Origin: Sideroxydans sp.
GTDB lineage: Bacteria > Pseudomonadota > Gammaproteobacteria > Burkholderiales > Gallionellaceae
Assembly: GCA_013824485.1 (NCBI GenBank)
Contig: PNNY01000003.1
Location: forward strand, 1 to 55,680
DNA length: 55,680 nucleotides
Reading direction: 5' to 3'
Shown: positions 2,640 to 12,562 of the stretch, in pieces
Numbering within the stretch: the first letter of the stretch is position 1
Layout of the letters: the number at the start of each line of letters is the position of its first letter
Notes under the pieces: generated by a model
Database searches by the model: none
Seen by the model: the letters and a program-made list of their open reading frames with translations, nothing else
What the model was told of the DNA's origin: nothing
Position numbers and translations under genes: made by a program

Positions 2640-3509
2640 ATGACTAATCTACTCATCATCGGCTGTGGGGACATCGCGTTACGCACCATCACGCTCTTGC
2701 GAGGCCACTATCGGCTTTATGCCCTAGTGAGGAACCCTGCCAAGGTAGATACATTGAGGAAGCTTGGCGTTACACCCATCTTGGGTGATCTGGATGAGAG
2801 GAGCGGTCTTACCAAAATCGCTGGTCTTGCCGATATCGTGCTGCACTTCGCCCCACCCGAGCGTCAAGGTCGCTTCGACACACGCACACGCAATCTACTC
2901 TCTGCGCTCTCCACTCGACTGCTACCAAATCGACTCATCTACATCAGCACCAGCGGTGTATATGGCGATTGCGGTGGCGACATCATCAGCGAGACACGCC
3001 CTGTGAATCCGCAGTCCGACCGTGCACGATTGCGCGTGAGTGCGGAGCGACAGATACGCACTTGGGCGACTCGCAATCACGTGAACGCCAACATCCTGCG
3101 TGTGCCGGGAATCATTGCAGAAGACAGATTACCAGTTGATCGGATCAAAGCTGGCGCCCCCGCCATCGTGGCAAGCGAGGACGGCTACAGCAACCACATC
3201 CACGCCGATGATCTGGCGCGCACCGTCATTGCCTCGCTACGTCATGCCAAGCCCAACCGCGTGTATCACACAGTGGATGACGATGAGATGAAGATGGGGG
3301 ATTACTTCGATGCCGTTGCCGATGCCTACAAGCTGCCTCGCCCACCACGCTTGCCACGCACAGAAGTTCAGCGCGCCGTATCACCCATGATGTGGTCATT
3401 CATGAATGAATCGCGACGACTGACCAACCTGCGCATGAAACAGGAATTGAAAGTGCGCCTACGCTATCTGACAGTGGGCACAACTTTGCACACGGCGAGC
3501 AAAACTTGA
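2640..3509 (+). CDS. NAD(P)-dependent epimerase/dehydratase (SDR family)
   Basis: Start MTNLLIIGCGDIALRT (nucleotide-binding motif), YISTSGVYGD, C-terminal SFMNESRRLTNLRMKQELKVRLRYLTV. Confidence 0.82.
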   Translation: MTNLLIIGCGDIALRTITLLRGHYRLYALVRNPAKVDTLRKLGVTPILGDLDERSGLTKIAGLADIVLHFAPPERQGRFDTRTRNLLSALSTRLLPNRLIYISTSGVYGDCGGDIISETRPVNPQSDRARLRVSAERQIRTWATRNHVNANILRVPGIIAEDRLPVDRIKAGAPAIVASEDGYSNHIHADDLARTVIASLRHAKPNRVYHTVDDDEMKMGDYFDAVADAYKLPRPPRLPRTEVQRAVSPMMWSFMNESRRLTNLRMKQELKVRLRYLTVGTTLHTASKT

Positions 3510-4254: not shown

Positions 4255-4281
4255 GCGTCCTGTTAGGCTACTTGAAGAGGA

Positions 4282-4327
4282 TCACTTCCAGATCGCTTTG
4301 CCATCTTCAGACTTGCACTTCTTCGAT
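4282..4327 (-). pseudogene. Remnant of the 3' end of a pstS-like gene
   Basis: Reverse strand reads ASKKCKSEDGKAIWK*, resembling the intact PstS C-terminus WKAKIKSNGKAVWK* at 5251. Confidence 0.6.
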
Positions 4328-4445
4328 GCGGTCGTTCATGAACGAATCGTTACGACTGGCCAACCTGCGCATGAAGCAGGAATTGAAAGTGACGCTACGT
4401 TATCCGACCGTAGCATCCCTACTTAAAACATCATCCCTAACCTAA
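4328..4445 (+). pseudogene. Remnant of the 3' end of an epimerase-like gene
   Basis: SFMNESLRLANLRMKQELKVTLRYPTVASLLKTSSLT* aligns with the C-terminus of 2640..3509 (SFMNESRRLTNLRMKQELKVRLRYLTVGTTLHTASKT*). Confidence 0.8.
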
Positions 4446-6297: not shown

Positions 6298-6325
6298 TTG
6301 ATTCTCCTGAGTTTATGGAGGCCGA

Positions 6326-7354
6326 TTAGAAGGAGTGAACTACACCTGCACCCAAGACTGATTGAGTAGAACCTGCAGTGGTACCGTAGAAACCATAAGT
6401 GCCTGCAGTGTCATTCTTTAATGAAGTGTAAGCAGCGAAGGCCTCTGTGCGCTTGGAGAAGTCAAAGCCATAACGCAGTGACAATTGAGTAGCACCTGTT
6501 GCAGCTACACTTGTCTTGCCTGCCTTTGCGAAGCTTGCTGCAAGTTTGTGCGGGCCCATCTTGTATTGACCAGCCAACTCCATGTTGCTTTGTGTGTAGG
6601 CCGTCGCTGTATTGATCTTGATGCTTTCAACTGTTGCGCCCAACCATAGATCAGCAAGACTGAATTTGCCAACCAAACGCATCGCTGAGTCTGTCTTGCC
6701 TGCTGTTGTTGCATCAGCACGGCTCTCGTAGGCTGCGGACACATAGATCGCTTCTTGTTCGAATGTGCCAGACATGGACATCAAGCTCTTATTCGTTGTC
6801 GTTGTTGGCGCTTCATCTGGGCTGTAAGACAAGGCAGCTTGGAATCCACTGAGGTTTGGAGACCAGTATTGAACATCGTTCTTTTGGCGAGTGTTGTAGT
6901 TGTTCGCCGAACCGTTGTAGTGACCAATGAGGTTCAAGGATGTGAAGGAAGTCGTGTTGTCGAACAGCTCGATCTTGTTGTGCGCGACCTTGAATGGTGT
7001 ATCCCAGATACCGATGATCACCTTACCGAAACCGCCTTCGATACCAACGCCGCTGTTGCGTGTGCCATTACCAAAGCCGTTGCTACCATTGCCATCTGCA
7101 TCCATTTGCACTTCAAATTGATACAGGCCCTTCAGACCTTCGCCCAGATCTTCGCTACCTTTAACGCCAAAACGTGAAGCATTTGTGTTCACGCGAGTCA
7201 CGCTCTTGCCTGTCGTTGCTGTAGCGACTTTGTCGCTGCTAGCAGATTCAACGTTCAAAAACGCTTTGCCGTAAACAGTCACGTTAGCGTTGTCGGCGAA
7301 TGCCGGAGTTGTGAATGCAGCTGCAACTGCCAGTGCTACGATTTTCTTCTTCAT
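6326..7354 (-). CDS. Gram-negative porin (betaproteobacterial OmpC-type)
   Basis: MKKKIVALAVAAAFTTPAFADNANVTVYGKAFLNVESA..., GSEDLGEGLKGLYQFEVQMD, C-terminal VVHSF. Confidence 0.93.
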   Translation of the reverse strand: MKKKIVALAVAAAFTTPAFADNANVTVYGKAFLNVESASSDKVATATTGKSVTRVNTNASRFGVKGSEDLGEGLKGLYQFEVQMDADGNGSNGFGNGTRNSGVGIEGGFGKVIIGIWDTPFKVAHNKIELFDNTTSFTSLNLIGHYNGSANNYNTRQKNDVQYWSPNLSGFQAALSYSPDEAPTTTTNKSLMSMSGTFEQEAIYVSAAYESRADATTAGKTDSAMRLVGKFSLADLWLGATVESIKINTATAYTQSNMELAGQYKMGPHKLAASFAKAGKTSVAATGATQLSLRYGFDFSKRTEAFAAYTSLKNDTAGTYGFYGTTAGSTQSVLGAGVVHSF

Positions 7355-7424
7355 GGTTGCTCCTAGTCATTAATAAAAATTGCTCTGAATTCCTCAACTC
7401 ACAGGGGAGGATTAAGGCGAGCGA

Positions 7425-7469
7425 ATTATGGGGAGGCTTTATGACAGGGCTGTTACATGAAAATGACAG
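7425..7469 (-). promoter_or_regulatory. Pho box (three 7-bp units at 11-bp spacing) plus -10 element upstream of porin-pstS
   Basis: Minus strand: CTGTCAT-TTTC-ATGTAAC-AGCC-CTGTCAT, then 10 nt, then CATAAT. Confidence 0.75.
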
Positions 7470-7567
7470 GCGTGTTAAACCTGCATTTGTTGGCAGTAGC
7501 AAAATGGAGTGGCAGGAGAGGCTGTGACCTGCCTCTAAGATTCAGAAGCAGATTAGTCAGGGTGACT

Positions 7568-8185
7568 TCAGCGTCTTGGGCGCCAGATCGCGATCAACAT
7601 CAAAAGGAAAAGTGCAACGAGGCTTTGCTCTATCCTATTGTTTGCTTTAGCGATGAGCCTTCCATTAGCCCTCGCCTTTTCATCTTCCATCTCTGCATCG
7701 GCAGCCTCAAGGATCTCGATCAGGGGTTGATCTACGCCTTTCACGCTGTCGTCTGCCTTGTGGGGATTGAAATTCTGTTGCGCTAGGATCTCGGTGGCTT
7801 GTTTGTATAAGAGTAGATTCGCAGCATGTGCATCAACGAAAGCCTCTAGCTTCACATTGATCGCCCTGACATCATTTTGAAACAAACCTTGCTTGGCCGC
7901 TTCAGCGACTTTCTTGTGCTGTGCTTCGAATATTTTCCAGTTCTTTAGCAAACTGTCTTGGCTATTGCTTCGCAACAGTACGTTCTTCCAATTTTGGACT
8001 TCCGACTTATATTCGATCTGCAGATCATGCACCACCGCGAATTGATCTGTACTTGTTTTCAGCTGGCTCTCCAGCTCTGCCGAACTGCTCCAGATCAGAT
8101 AGAGGAAGAAACAGAAAGCAGCGGTCAATCCGATGCGCTCAAAAGTCTCCATTGAGAAAAATGCATTCTTACGTCTTTCTTTCAT
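7568..8185 (-). CDS. Membrane protein with chemoreceptor-like periplasmic sensor domain and no output domain
   Basis: Two TM helices flanking a helical domain with VQNWKNVLLRSNSQDSLLKNWKIFE; GGAGAG upstream of start. Confidence 0.65.
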   Translation of the reverse strand: MKERRKNAFFSMETFERIGLTAAFCFFLYLIWSSSAELESQLKTSTDQFAVVHDLQIEYKSEVQNWKNVLLRSNSQDSLLKNWKIFEAQHKKVAEAAKQGLFQNDVRAINVKLEAFVDAHAANLLLYKQATEILAQQNFNPHKADDSVKGVDQPLIEILEAADAEMEDEKARANGRLIAKANNRIEQSLVALFLLMLIAIWRPRR

Positions 8186-8264: not shown

Positions 8265-8930
8265 TTACTGCCTGATCATCAGGTTCGCAAAGATGAATCC
8301 GAACAACGCCATGAAGAACAGCGAGGTCGCACCCAACAGACCGATCATAAAGTTGCGATTCCCCTGCGTCTCGGGTGTCCTATACATCTGCTGTTTGGCA
8401 AACGCCGATATCCCCGCTTTGACCGACGCTATATCTTGTTGCAACTTGCGATCTACACCGACGATCTGCATATCGACCTTGTTGGAAGAATCCTTCACCG
8501 ATGGCCTGAGTTTGGAGTGCGCCAGTAGGTATTCAGAAAGTAGCGACTTATGCTCCGATATCAAATGGTCTATCTCTGCGGTATCCATGCCGATATCCTG
8601 CATCGCGGTCTTTGCATTCAGCAGCGCATATTGCACACCGATACTGGATTCCCGAAACCCTTTAAGATGGATGTCGTATAGCGTCTTATCGTTGGCGCGT
8701 AACAACAGGTCCTTCCACTCTTGCACCTGCCGCCCCAAGCCGATAGCTGCCTCATCAAGGCTTTCTTCTATCTCCAGCAGTTGTACGCTGCGCTGTGCTG
8801 CAGCCTCATTCACTTGAGAGAATATCCTTGATAGCTGATACCCCCCAGCCATCGCCAAGAGCAGCAGCGCTGCAAAGAATATCAAGAAGGGTTTCGATAG
8901 CCAGACTGGGGGCAATGTGTTGTTAGTCAT
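8265..8930 (-). CDS. Membrane protein with chemoreceptor-like periplasmic sensor domain and no output domain (related to preceding gene)
   Basis: Start MTNNTLPPVWLSKPFL; motif VQEWKDLLLRANDKTLYDIHLKGF; terminal TM helix. Confidence 0.65.
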   Translation of the reverse strand: MTNNTLPPVWLSKPFLIFFAALLLLAMAGGYQLSRIFSQVNEAAAQRSVQLLEIEESLDEAAIGLGRQVQEWKDLLLRANDKTLYDIHLKGFRESSIGVQYALLNAKTAMQDIGMDTAEIDHLISEHKSLLSEYLLAHSKLRPSVKDSSNKVDMQIVGVDRKLQQDIASVKAGISAFAKQQMYRTPETQGNRNFMIGLLGATSLFFMALFGFIFANLMIRQ

Positions 8931-8977
8931 TTCGAGTTTTTTTAAATGCGATATTGCCGCAATGATACTTGAGCGAC

Positions 8978-9883
8978 TTAGCTCTTCTCCATGAAACGCT
9001 CGATGTGATCTAAAAAGACGCGTGTCTTGGTCGGCAGGAAACGTCGCGTGGGCATCACCGCCCAAGCAGGCACGGATGGGAAACACCACTTCGGCAGTAC
9101 ACGTACCAAGCGACCACTCTTTACATCACTATTGGCGAAGAGGTCAGGTAATGCGCCGATGCCAGCGCCGTCGAGTAGCAGTTGCTGAATCATGTCGGGT
9201 GAGTTCAGCGTGAGTCGTCCTGGCGGTACATCCTCCCATACTTCTTTTCCGCGCATCAATTTCCACGGCACGGCTGTGCCACGCGCAGATAACAATCGCA
9301 CCGAGGTATGGCGCTCCAGATCGTCAGGATGTTTGGGCGCGGGATGCAATGCGAGATAGATAGGACTGGCGTAGAGCGCCATGCTTTGCTCGTCGATCTT
9401 GCGTGCCACCAACGTCGCATCATTATCCAAGTCGCCCATACGGATGGCGAGATCGAAACGCTCGCCGATGAGATCGACGCGACGCGAACTCAGGTCAAGG
9501 TCGAGTTGAATCTCGGGATAGGCGTCGATGAAGGTGGCGATAGCGCGCGAGAAATGCACCTTGGCGTAATCGGCCGGCATAGAGACGCGCAAACGACCAC
9601 GCGGCTGGATGTCTTGACTGCGTACGAAGTCCTGCACGGTGGCGACCTCTTCCGCCACACGACGACTATGGTCAAGGAACTCCTGCCCGAAGTCGGTGAG
9701 GGTAAGACGGCGCGTGGTGCGTATCAACAGACGCTGACCCAGTGCCGCTTCAAGATTGGTGAGGCGGCGCGACACCGTGGCTTTGGGCATGCCCAGCTGG
9801 TCAGCGGCGCGCACCAGACTCTCCTGGTCCACGATGGTGGCGAACAGGATGAGGTCGTCTGCTGATATCTTAGCTTGTTCCAT
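8978..9883 (-). CDS. LysR family transcriptional regulator
   Basis: ESLVRAADQLGMPKATVSRRLTNLEAALGQRLLIRTTRRLTLTDFG HTH. Confidence 0.95.
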   Translation of the reverse strand: MEQAKISADDLILFATIVDQESLVRAADQLGMPKATVSRRLTNLEAALGQRLLIRTTRRLTLTDFGQEFLDHSRRVAEEVATVQDFVRSQDIQPRGRLRVSMPADYAKVHFSRAIATFIDAYPEIQLDLDLSSRRVDLIGERFDLAIRMGDLDNDATLVARKIDEQSMALYASPIYLALHPAPKHPDDLERHTSVRLLSARGTAVPWKLMRGKEVWEDVPPGRLTLNSPDMIQQLLLDGAGIGALPDLFANSDVKSGRLVRVLPKWCFPSVPAWAVMPTRRFLPTKTRVFLDHIERFMEKS

Positions 9884-9893: not shown

Positions 9894-9974
9894 GTCTATC
9901 TCGAATAGATGGCTTTATCTATCATTTCGAGCCGCCTAATATGCAACTCAATTACTCAGGCATTGGAGTCCAAA

Positions 9975-10841
9975 ATGAACACCACCACACCAAACAGTAT
10001 CCGCCAACCCCGTACCGTGGAGCGCCTCATCCAAGGCGTTGCCACTTCCGATGGCGCAGGTGTAAGCCTGACCCGCGTGCTCACCGGCAAGTTACAACGT
10101 CGTCTCGACCCCTACCTGATGCTGGATGCTTTCGGTAGCGACGACCCTGACGACTACATCGCAGGCTTCCCCGACCATCCTCATCGCGGCTTCGAAACCA
10201 TCACCTACATGTTGGCCGGCCGTATGCGTCACCGCGACAGCGCGGGCCACGAAGGTCTGCTGGGCGATGGCGGCGTACAGTGGATGACGGCAGGTAGCGG
10301 CGTGATCCACTCCGAGATTCCCGAACAGGAAGACGGCGTGATGGAAGGTTTCCAGCTTTGGCTCAACCTGCCTGCAAAAAACAAGATGGCAAAACCTTGG
10401 TACAAAGATTTCGCCAGTGCCGACATCCCTGAATACGAGACCGCAGAAGGTGTGACCGTGCGCGTCATCGCAGGATCTAGCAACGGCGTGACGGGTGCGG
10501 TCACCCGCGAGGTGACCGAGCCTATCTATCTCGACATTCATCTGCCCGCAGGTGCTTCGTTCTCGACCGCGCTCCCCGACACACACAATGCGTTCATCTA
10601 CACCTATCGCGGTGCGACGAATGTGGCGGGCACGCAGGTGGATGTGCAACGCATGGGCATCTTGAGCAACACAGAAGGATCGGATGGCATCACCGTTTCG
10701 GCGACAGAGCCGACGCGCCTCATCTTGGTGGCGGGCAAACCATTGAACGAGCCCATCGTGCAATACGGCCCATTCGTGATGAACACACAGGAAGAGATCC
10801 ACAAAGCGCTGGACGATTTCCGTGGCGGTCGCTTGGCTTGA
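9975..10841 (+). CDS. Pirin family protein
   Basis: DPYLMLDAFGSDDPDDYIAGFPDHPHRGFETITYMLAGRMRHRDSAGHEG, WMTAGSGVIHSE. Confidence 0.95.
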   Translation: MNTTTPNSIRQPRTVERLIQGVATSDGAGVSLTRVLTGKLQRRLDPYLMLDAFGSDDPDDYIAGFPDHPHRGFETITYMLAGRMRHRDSAGHEGLLGDGGVQWMTAGSGVIHSEIPEQEDGVMEGFQLWLNLPAKNKMAKPWYKDFASADIPEYETAEGVTVRVIAGSSNGVTGAVTREVTEPIYLDIHLPAGASFSTALPDTHNAFIYTYRGATNVAGTQVDVQRMGILSNTEGSDGITVSATEPTRLILVAGKPLNEPIVQYGPFVMNTQEEIHKALDDFRGGRLA

Positions 10842-10851
10842 GGGGATAGAG

Positions 10852-11400
10852 ATGAGCACACCTATCCAGCGTTACAACAACACCGCGATGGCGCTGCATT
10901 GGCTGGTGGCGTTGCTGATATTCGCCGCTTTTCCGCTCGGCGTATACATGCACGATCTGCCGCTGTCGCCCACCAAGTTGCAGTACTACAGCTATCACAA
11001 ATGGATAGGTATCACGATATTGTTGCTGGTCATCGCCCGTGTGCTGTGGCGCTTCACACATACACCACCTCCGCTGCCCGCTTCGACACCGCGCTGGGAA
11101 GTGCTGGTGAGTCACATCACGCATCTGGCACTGTATGGATTACTGATCGCCATCCCACTCTCGGGTTGGTTGATGAGCTCCGCCAAAGGATTCCAGACCG
11201 TGTGGTTCGGCGTGTTACCGCTACCTGACCTCGTGGAGAAGAACAAAGAATTGGGCGAGTTGCTCGCGACCGTTCATCAGGGACTGAACGTGTTCCTCTT
11301 CTTGTTGGTGGGCATGCACATCGCCGCCGTCATCAAACACAAATTCATCGACCGCGATCAGATACTGGAACGCATGTTGCCGAAAGGAATGAGCAAATGA
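10852..11400 (+). CDS. Cytochrome b561
   Basis: MSTPIQRYNNTAMALHWLVALLIFAAFPLG; four TM helices with conserved His. Confidence 0.93.
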   Translation: MSTPIQRYNNTAMALHWLVALLIFAAFPLGVYMHDLPLSPTKLQYYSYHKWIGITILLLVIARVLWRFTHTPPPLPASTPRWEVLVSHITHLALYGLLIAIPLSGWLMSSAKGFQTVWFGVLPLPDLVEKNKELGELLATVHQGLNVFLFLLVGMHIAAVIKHKFIDRDQILERMLPKGMSK

Positions 11401-11969
11401 AATCTCGCTTGCGAATCGTTTTACTTGGATTGGCCTTGATCGGCACCACTGCCACCGCTGTCGAATTCAAACAAGTGCAGGCGAATGAAAGCACGGTCAC
11501 CTTCGGCTACAAGCAGATGGGCGTGCCGATGGAAGGCAAGTTCGCGAAGTTCACCGCGCAGACTAGCTTCGACCCTGCCAAGTTGAGCAAAGCACAAGCG
11601 CGCATCGACATCGACCTCGCTAGCATCGATACCGGCTCGGAAGAGGCCAACGATGAAGTGAAAGCCAAGCCGTGGTTCAACACGCAAGCTTTTCCCAGCG
11701 CAGGTTTCGTATCCACTGGTGTGAAAACACTGGGCGGAAATAAATACGAAGCGATGGGCAAACTCACCATCAAAGGCAAGACGCTTGATGTCGTCGCACC
11801 CTTCACCTTCCAAGCCAACGGCACACGCGCATCATTTGATGGCGTGTTCGCTATCAAGCGGCTGGACTACAACATCGGCGAAGGGGTGTGGACAGATGTC
11901 AGCACCGTCGCCAACGAGATACAGATCAAGTTCCACATTGTCTTAACTGCAGCACCTAACAAGAAGTAA
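11397..11969 (+). CDS. YceI family periplasmic protein
   Basis: Signal peptide, VTFGYKQMGVPMEGKFAKF, DIDLASIDTGSEEANDEVKAKPWFNTQAFPSAGF. Confidence 0.93.
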   Translation: MKSRLRIVLLGLALIGTTATAVEFKQVQANESTVTFGYKQMGVPMEGKFAKFTAQTSFDPAKLSKAQARIDIDLASIDTGSEEANDEVKAKPWFNTQAFPSAGFVSTGVKTLGGNKYEAMGKLTIKGKTLDVVAPFTFQANGTRASFDGVFAIKRLDYNIGEGVWTDVSTVANEIQIKFHIVLTAAPNKK

Positions 11970-11995
11970 GCCCTCAACCACCCCAGGAGAACACC

Positions 11996-12562
11996 ATGAA
12001 GAAAATCATCGCCCTCACTATCGCCGCCACTATCTCTTCTGTCGCTTACGCAGAACCAGTGACTTACAACATCGAACCCTCTCACTCCATGCCGCGTTTC
12101 GAATACAGCCATTTGGGTTACTCCATCCAGTTGAGCCGCTTCGACAAGACATCCGGCACCATCGTACTCGACCAGATCAAGCGCACTGGCTCGATCGATG
12201 TGACGATCGACGCCAAGTCGGTGAACACAGGTTCTGCACTATTCAATGAACACATCCAAGCGGAAGATCTGTTCGACACTGCGAAGTATCCGACCATCAC
12301 TTACAAGTCGAGCAAAGTGAAATTCGATGGAGACAAGGTCGTGGCAGTGGAAGGTGACTTGACCGTCAAGGGCGTGACCAAGCCCGTGAAACTCACTGTA
12401 AATTCGTTCTTGTGCATGCCACATCCAATGGTGAAGAAAGAAGCCTGTGGCGCAACAGCTACTGCCAAGATCAAACGCTCTGATTTCGGCTTGAGCAAAG
12501 GTGTACCTTACGTTGGCGATGAAGTCACACTGACCATCCCAGTCGAAGCGATCAAGCAATAA
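11996..12562 (+). CDS. YceI family periplasmic protein
   Basis: YNIEPSHSMPRFEYSHLGYSIQLSRFDKTSGTI, HIQAEDLFDTAKYPTITYKSS. Confidence 0.95.
   Translation: MKKIIALTIAATISSVAYAEPVTYNIEPSHSMPRFEYSHLGYSIQLSRFDKTSGTIVLDQIKRTGSIDVTIDAKSVNTGSALFNEHIQAEDLFDTAKYPTITYKSSKVKFDGDKVVAVEGDLTVKGVTKPVKLTVNSFLCMPHPMVKKEACGATATAKIKRSDFGLSKGVPYVGDEVTLTIPVEAIKQ

Follow-up and report, generated by a model that had tools for sequence, protein, structure and literature searches.

PhoE of E. coli is a Pho-regulated general porin, and OprP and OprO are porins selective for phosphate and polyphosphate. Gallionellaceae live in habitats that contain iron oxides, which are tight phosphate binders. A general-type porin for which induction by PhoB has been proposed is KpnO of Klebsiella (PMC3405095). 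CTGTCAT is the reported PhoB motif of E. coli (PMC4415409), a Pho box has been published as CTGTCATA(A/T)A(T/A)CTGT(C/A)A(C/T) (PMC3405095), and PhoB sites are placed over the -35 position (PMC3348028). Bacterial lipid remodelling under phosphate stress has been described for the PlcP-Agt pathway (PMC4796936, PMC8528852).

We analysed a 55.7-kb stretch of DNA (hereafter the window) from a draft assembly of 197 contigs with 89.9% completeness (G000). A plasmid origin was discarded, as no match was found among plasmids. The source is an uncultured relative of iron bacteria within the Gallionellaceae, and the nearest named loci belong to metagenome-assembled genomes of Sideroxydans and Gallionellaceae. 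On the minus strand of the window, an outer-membrane porin gene (7354-6326, 342 amino acids, Porin_4 family) is followed by a pstS gene (6297-5251) encoding a phosphate-binding protein of 348 amino acids. As the first-pass annotation had proposed, the two genes are 28 bp apart and this pstS is stand-alone, pstCAB not being adjacent to it. The reading that we favour, with a probability of roughly 0.85 on sequence evidence, is that PhoB drives the porin and pstS as a dicistron under phosphate limitation, the two genes having been joined by loss of a segment in the G000 lineage. Elsewhere in the window, two adjacent genes of the minus strand (7568-8185 and 8265-9089) encode small proteins without a Pfam match; their mutual similarity is weak (26% over 108 amino acids, E = 3e-4), and their orthologs occupy the same place in the sister genome G025. 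On the plus strand, Pirin, cytochrome b561 and two YceI-like genes stand in a row (9909-12562) and bear no relation to the Pho finding.

Direct reading of the minus strand from 7480 to 7425 gave GTTTAAC-ACGC-CTGTCAT-TTTC-ATGTAAC-AGCC-CTGTCAT-AAAGCCTCCC-CATAAT. The units CTGTCAT (7469-7463), ATGTAAC (7458-7452) and CTGTCAT (7447-7441) form a three-unit Pho box (7441-7469), predicted to be a PhoB site replacing the -35 element. The -10 element CATAAT, kept in five species, lies 10 nt past the last unit. The layout CTGTCAT-4-ATGTAAC-4-CTGTCAT-10-CATAAT noted in the first-pass annotation is thus exact, at 7469 to 7425. Its three units and -10 element stand, and are amended by a weaker fourth half-site upstream (GTTTAAC, 7474-7480; CTGTAAC in G015, CTGTAAT in G020), by a -10 element at 7430-7425 and by a predicted start at about 7418. 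The promoter carries CTGTCAY-like 7-bp tandem units with 4-bp spacers and an 11-bp period, as well as a -10 element some 10 nt downstream of the final unit, with the Pho box covering the -35 position, as in PhoB-activated promoters. The middle unit, ATGTAAC, agrees with CTGTCAY at five of seven positions. Agreement is also found with the E. coli motif, with the published Pho box and with the placement over -35 (PMC4415409, PMC3405095, PMC3348028).

With as many as three mismatches allowed, the three-unit pattern occurs once in the window and in none of 100 dinucleotide shuffles. In a motif scan of the whole genome, suggested earlier as a check, the porin site was the sole match in 2.07 Mb (2,066,618 bases), and relaxed versions of the pattern again found only this site. 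When the region upstream of the porin was scored for three units at different periods, 11 bp gave the best value, 19/21, and 8, 9, 10, 12 and 13 bp gave no more than 14; a score of 19/21 was not attained by any of 2000 Markov-resampled sequences. A chance match is ruled out by the shuffles, the genome-wide uniqueness and the conservation across species described below.

The genome encodes PhoB (359.5 bits against an NCBIfam cut-off of 296.2), and PhoR (PF11808) adjoins it downstream. Several further regulators of the PhoB family score below the PhoB cut-off. The orphan pstS scores above the curated cut-offs of TIGR00975 and PRK10918 (NF008171, 424 bits against 339; TIGR00975, 384 against 205). 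It is a second copy, the main pst system being represented by a pstS-pstC pair at the end of contig C5. By eye, the promoter of this pair reads GTGTAAT-AATT-ACGTAAC-10-TACGAT, which repeats the geometry of the porin site in weaker form.

Four sister species (G001, G015, G020, G025) share with G000, in front of the orthologous porin, the boxes (near -115), the 10-nt gap, the -10 element and a leader of about 64 nt that is nearly identical. Non-conservation of the repeats in orthologous promoters, named beforehand as the observation that would speak against a Pho site, was not seen. Upstream of the boxes, the window and the four sisters are 39-48% identical. Identity rises to 84-87% within the boxes, 81-100% around the -10 element, 93-100% in the leader and 81-97% in the signal peptide, giving a range of 81-100% from the boxes through the signal peptide. 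It is about 54-73% in the mature porin, G001 being left out of this bin because its ortholog ends at a contig end. Of the 199 genomes searched, only G000 and the four sisters gave the promoter-leader block at substantial length; these five species form one subclade and are not independent samples. A second class of porin promoter, with the layout unit-4-unit-4-unit-10-CATCAT and a different sequence, occurs before the orthologs of five other congeners (G006, G009, G016, G018 and G032); a three-unit site reaches p<0.01 in four of the five, G016 (13/21) being the exception. The closest porins by sequence, up to 69% identical and located at other loci, are without boxes. Related porins at other loci score 10-13/21, ruling out a Pho box common to the entire porin family. 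To judge from these comparisons, the reading of the porin promoter as a Pho site is supported, and promoter, leader and signal peptide are a module inherited within the Sideroxydans-like clade.

The predicted leader (7355-7418, minus strand, about 64 nt from the presumed start) contains the ribosome site AGGAG. Across the five species it is more conserved than the neighbouring coding DNA. A structured leader RNA was ruled out, as folding was no better than that of shuffles.

The porin protein matches PF13609 (160 bits, cut-off 27) and PF00267 only; no match was found to Porin_O_P, the OprP/OprO family, which we take to be PF07396. There is no support for a phosphate-selective pore. Its nearest solved relatives in the PDB are Neisseria PorB (E = 1.4e-18) and Delftia Omp32 (E = 1e-13). 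The signal peptide is kept with the Pho-promoter orthologs, and the mature barrel is closest to porins without a Pho box. Over its first 100 coding bases, the porin gene shows 92-93% identity to its counterparts in G025 and G015, and identity drops to 42-84% in the remainder. In the porin tree, the window barrel is nearest to L126 and L127, both with promoters lacking boxes; the barrels of G015 and G025 form a group at a second position, and those of G020 and G001 at a third. The five modules precede barrels in three places of this tree, in which several forks are weak and a single origin of the Pho-promoter group is compatible once unlabelled rows are ignored. The pattern of block identities and the tree fit either barrel exchange or rapid divergence behind a fixed module. 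It is possible, if rather doubtful, that recombination with other porin genes has replaced or greatly diversified the barrel behind a fixed module of Pho promoter, leader and signal peptide. For E. coli, outer-membrane proteins have already been described as evolving in mosaic fashion (PMC12175518). If such an exchange behind a fixed module took place, the conserved and apparently unstructured leader would be a site of post-transcriptional control, for instance by a small RNA.

The porin and pstS are arranged differently in the sister species. The same strand carries both genes in G015, G020 and G001, the porin (or its end) being upstream of pstS, at a distance of 14.3 kb in G015 and 8.4 kb in G020, the interval in G001 being cut by a contig end. 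As scored in G015, the intervening segment encodes two alkaline phosphatases directly after the porin, a Zn-dependent phospholipase C, PAP2, GT4, DgkA (prokaryotic diacylglycerol kinase), a GNAT protein and an acyltransferase; the last two may be ornithine-lipid genes (OlsB/OlsA-like). This phosphate-stress gene cluster of G015 extends over L155 1088-17541. Two sites were seen at the sister pstS: a forward Pho-like site of its own and a three-unit site facing the phospholipase. A hairpin terminator is found about 30-40 nt past the stop codon of all sister Pho-promoter porins whose 3' end is covered, and also after nearly every other porin ortholog inspected. In the window, the 28-bp junction (6298-6325, minus strand) contains the pstS ribosome site and no terminator, and the segment and pstS's own Pho promoter are likewise missing. 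Because the sister-type terminator and the pstS promoter are both absent, the co-expression of porin and pstS assumed in the first-pass annotation is supported, as a prediction from gene arrangement.

Orthologs of the glycosyltransferase and phospholipase are present in 20 of the 21 congeners searched, the exception being G002, which is 53% complete. In G000 these orthologs were not found, and neither were the GNAT protein and the family of alkaline phosphatases; with 197 contigs and 89.9% completeness, the draft does not make the absence of the segment certain. Synteny is kept on both sides of the junction, the regulator-side block resembling G025 and the pstS-side block G031; homology of pstS to its sister ends at 6307. 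On the minus strand nearby, a 35-bp remnant (4281-4315) is 94% identical to the 3' end of the G031 pstS, and an 85% duplicate of the SDR gene's end (3389-3475) adjoins it at 4325-4411. Both are traces of earlier duplication or recombination beside pstS, so that a simple deletion and the insertion of an incoming pstS segment are both possible. An ancestral porin-pstS pairing is unsupported, the sister loci being without it. From the gene orders compared, the two genes appear to have been joined in the G000 lineage by loss, through deletion or recombination, of an 8-14 kb segment. Since the pairing is a derived fusion seen only in G000, it is not in itself grounds for regarding the porin as a phosphate-starvation channel. 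This role, put forward in the first-pass annotation, keeps the support of the conserved box and of the adjacent alkaline phosphatases in one sister.

An assembly chimera would also bring the porin and pstS together: the Pho promoter would then control the porin, and the real pstS would lie 8-14 kb away with a Pho promoter of its own. The draft state of the assembly, with its 197 contigs, and six related loci in which pstS stands beside its own promoter and a phospholipase gene are in favour of such an artefact. However, the two sister flanks share at most seven identical bases, too few for a k-mer join, which argues against an assembly join. Moreover, the junction is internal to a 55.7-kb contig and flanked on either side by gene order shared with the sisters, the rest of the assembly lacks four genes of the segment, and the pstS remnant with the duplicated SDR fragment indicates that the locus was really rearranged. 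We consider a chimera unlikely.

The regulator and the pore leave room for two other interpretations. Regulators of the OmpR/PhoB family share a tandem half-site architecture, and with several PhoB-family members below the PhoB cut-off in the genome, the repeats might bind one of these and respond to a signal other than phosphate. This is highly improbable in view of the agreement of the units with published PhoB motifs (PMC4415409, PMC3405095), of the same geometry in front of the genome's pstS-pstC, and of the alkaline phosphatases that are the next genes in G015. As for the pore, the promoter may be PhoB-dependent and the porin a general diffusion pore, its role in starvation being a higher non-selective permeability. 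Membership of Porin_4, the similarity to PorB and Omp32 and a mature barrel whose nearest porins lack a Pho box make this fairly probable. On the other side, a preference for anions does not require an OprP-like pore, as general porins, PhoE among them, can show it. A general pore is compatible with a PhoB-driven porin-pstS dicistron and refines that explanation.

The site, its conservation, the gene order, the lost terminator and the PhoB and PhoR genes are observed, and the following scheme for the dicistron can be predicted from them. Under phosphate limitation, PhoR would phosphorylate PhoB, which would bind head-to-tail on the 7-bp repeats between 7480 and 7441 and bring RNA polymerase to the CATAAT -10 element in place of a -35 element. 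A single transcript starting at about 7418 would then encode the porin followed by the orphan PstS. Together, the two proteins would raise outer-membrane permeability and periplasmic phosphate-binding capacity, the orphan PstS feeding PstCAB encoded elsewhere.

Overall, the locus provides a well-supported candidate for a Pho-regulated porin in the iron-oxidiser family Gallionellaceae. It is also a candidate case of regulon rewiring, in which a loss of 8-14 kb would have taken a terminator and a promoter, turned two Pho units into one and removed nearby candidate lipid-remodelling genes. PhoB-regulated porins and Pho-regulated pstS genes are already known; less usual are the fused arrangement and the conserved module. 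As in E. coli promoters of the pstS/phoA/phoE type, CTGTCAT-type 7-bp repeats recur every 11 bp over the -35 position and are followed by a -10 element. The porin site differs from these in its three to four units, one of which is the variant ATGTAAC, and in the conserved leader behind it, which is specific to the lineage. In the sisters, the segment that separates porin and pstS recalls PlcP-Agt by its phospholipase and glycosyltransferase genes, accompanied by GNAT and acyltransferase genes; in contrast, the sister phospholipase belongs to Zn_dep_PLPC (PF00882), and the segment is absent from G000. With OprP and OprO the window porin shares an outer-membrane pore plausibly expressed in phosphate starvation, although its matches to PF13609 and PF00267 set it apart from Porin_O_P. 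It is like PhoE and KpnO in being a general-type outer-membrane porin with proposed induction by PhoB, whereas it is a Porin_4, PorB-like betaproteobacterial protein and forms one unit with an orphan pstS.
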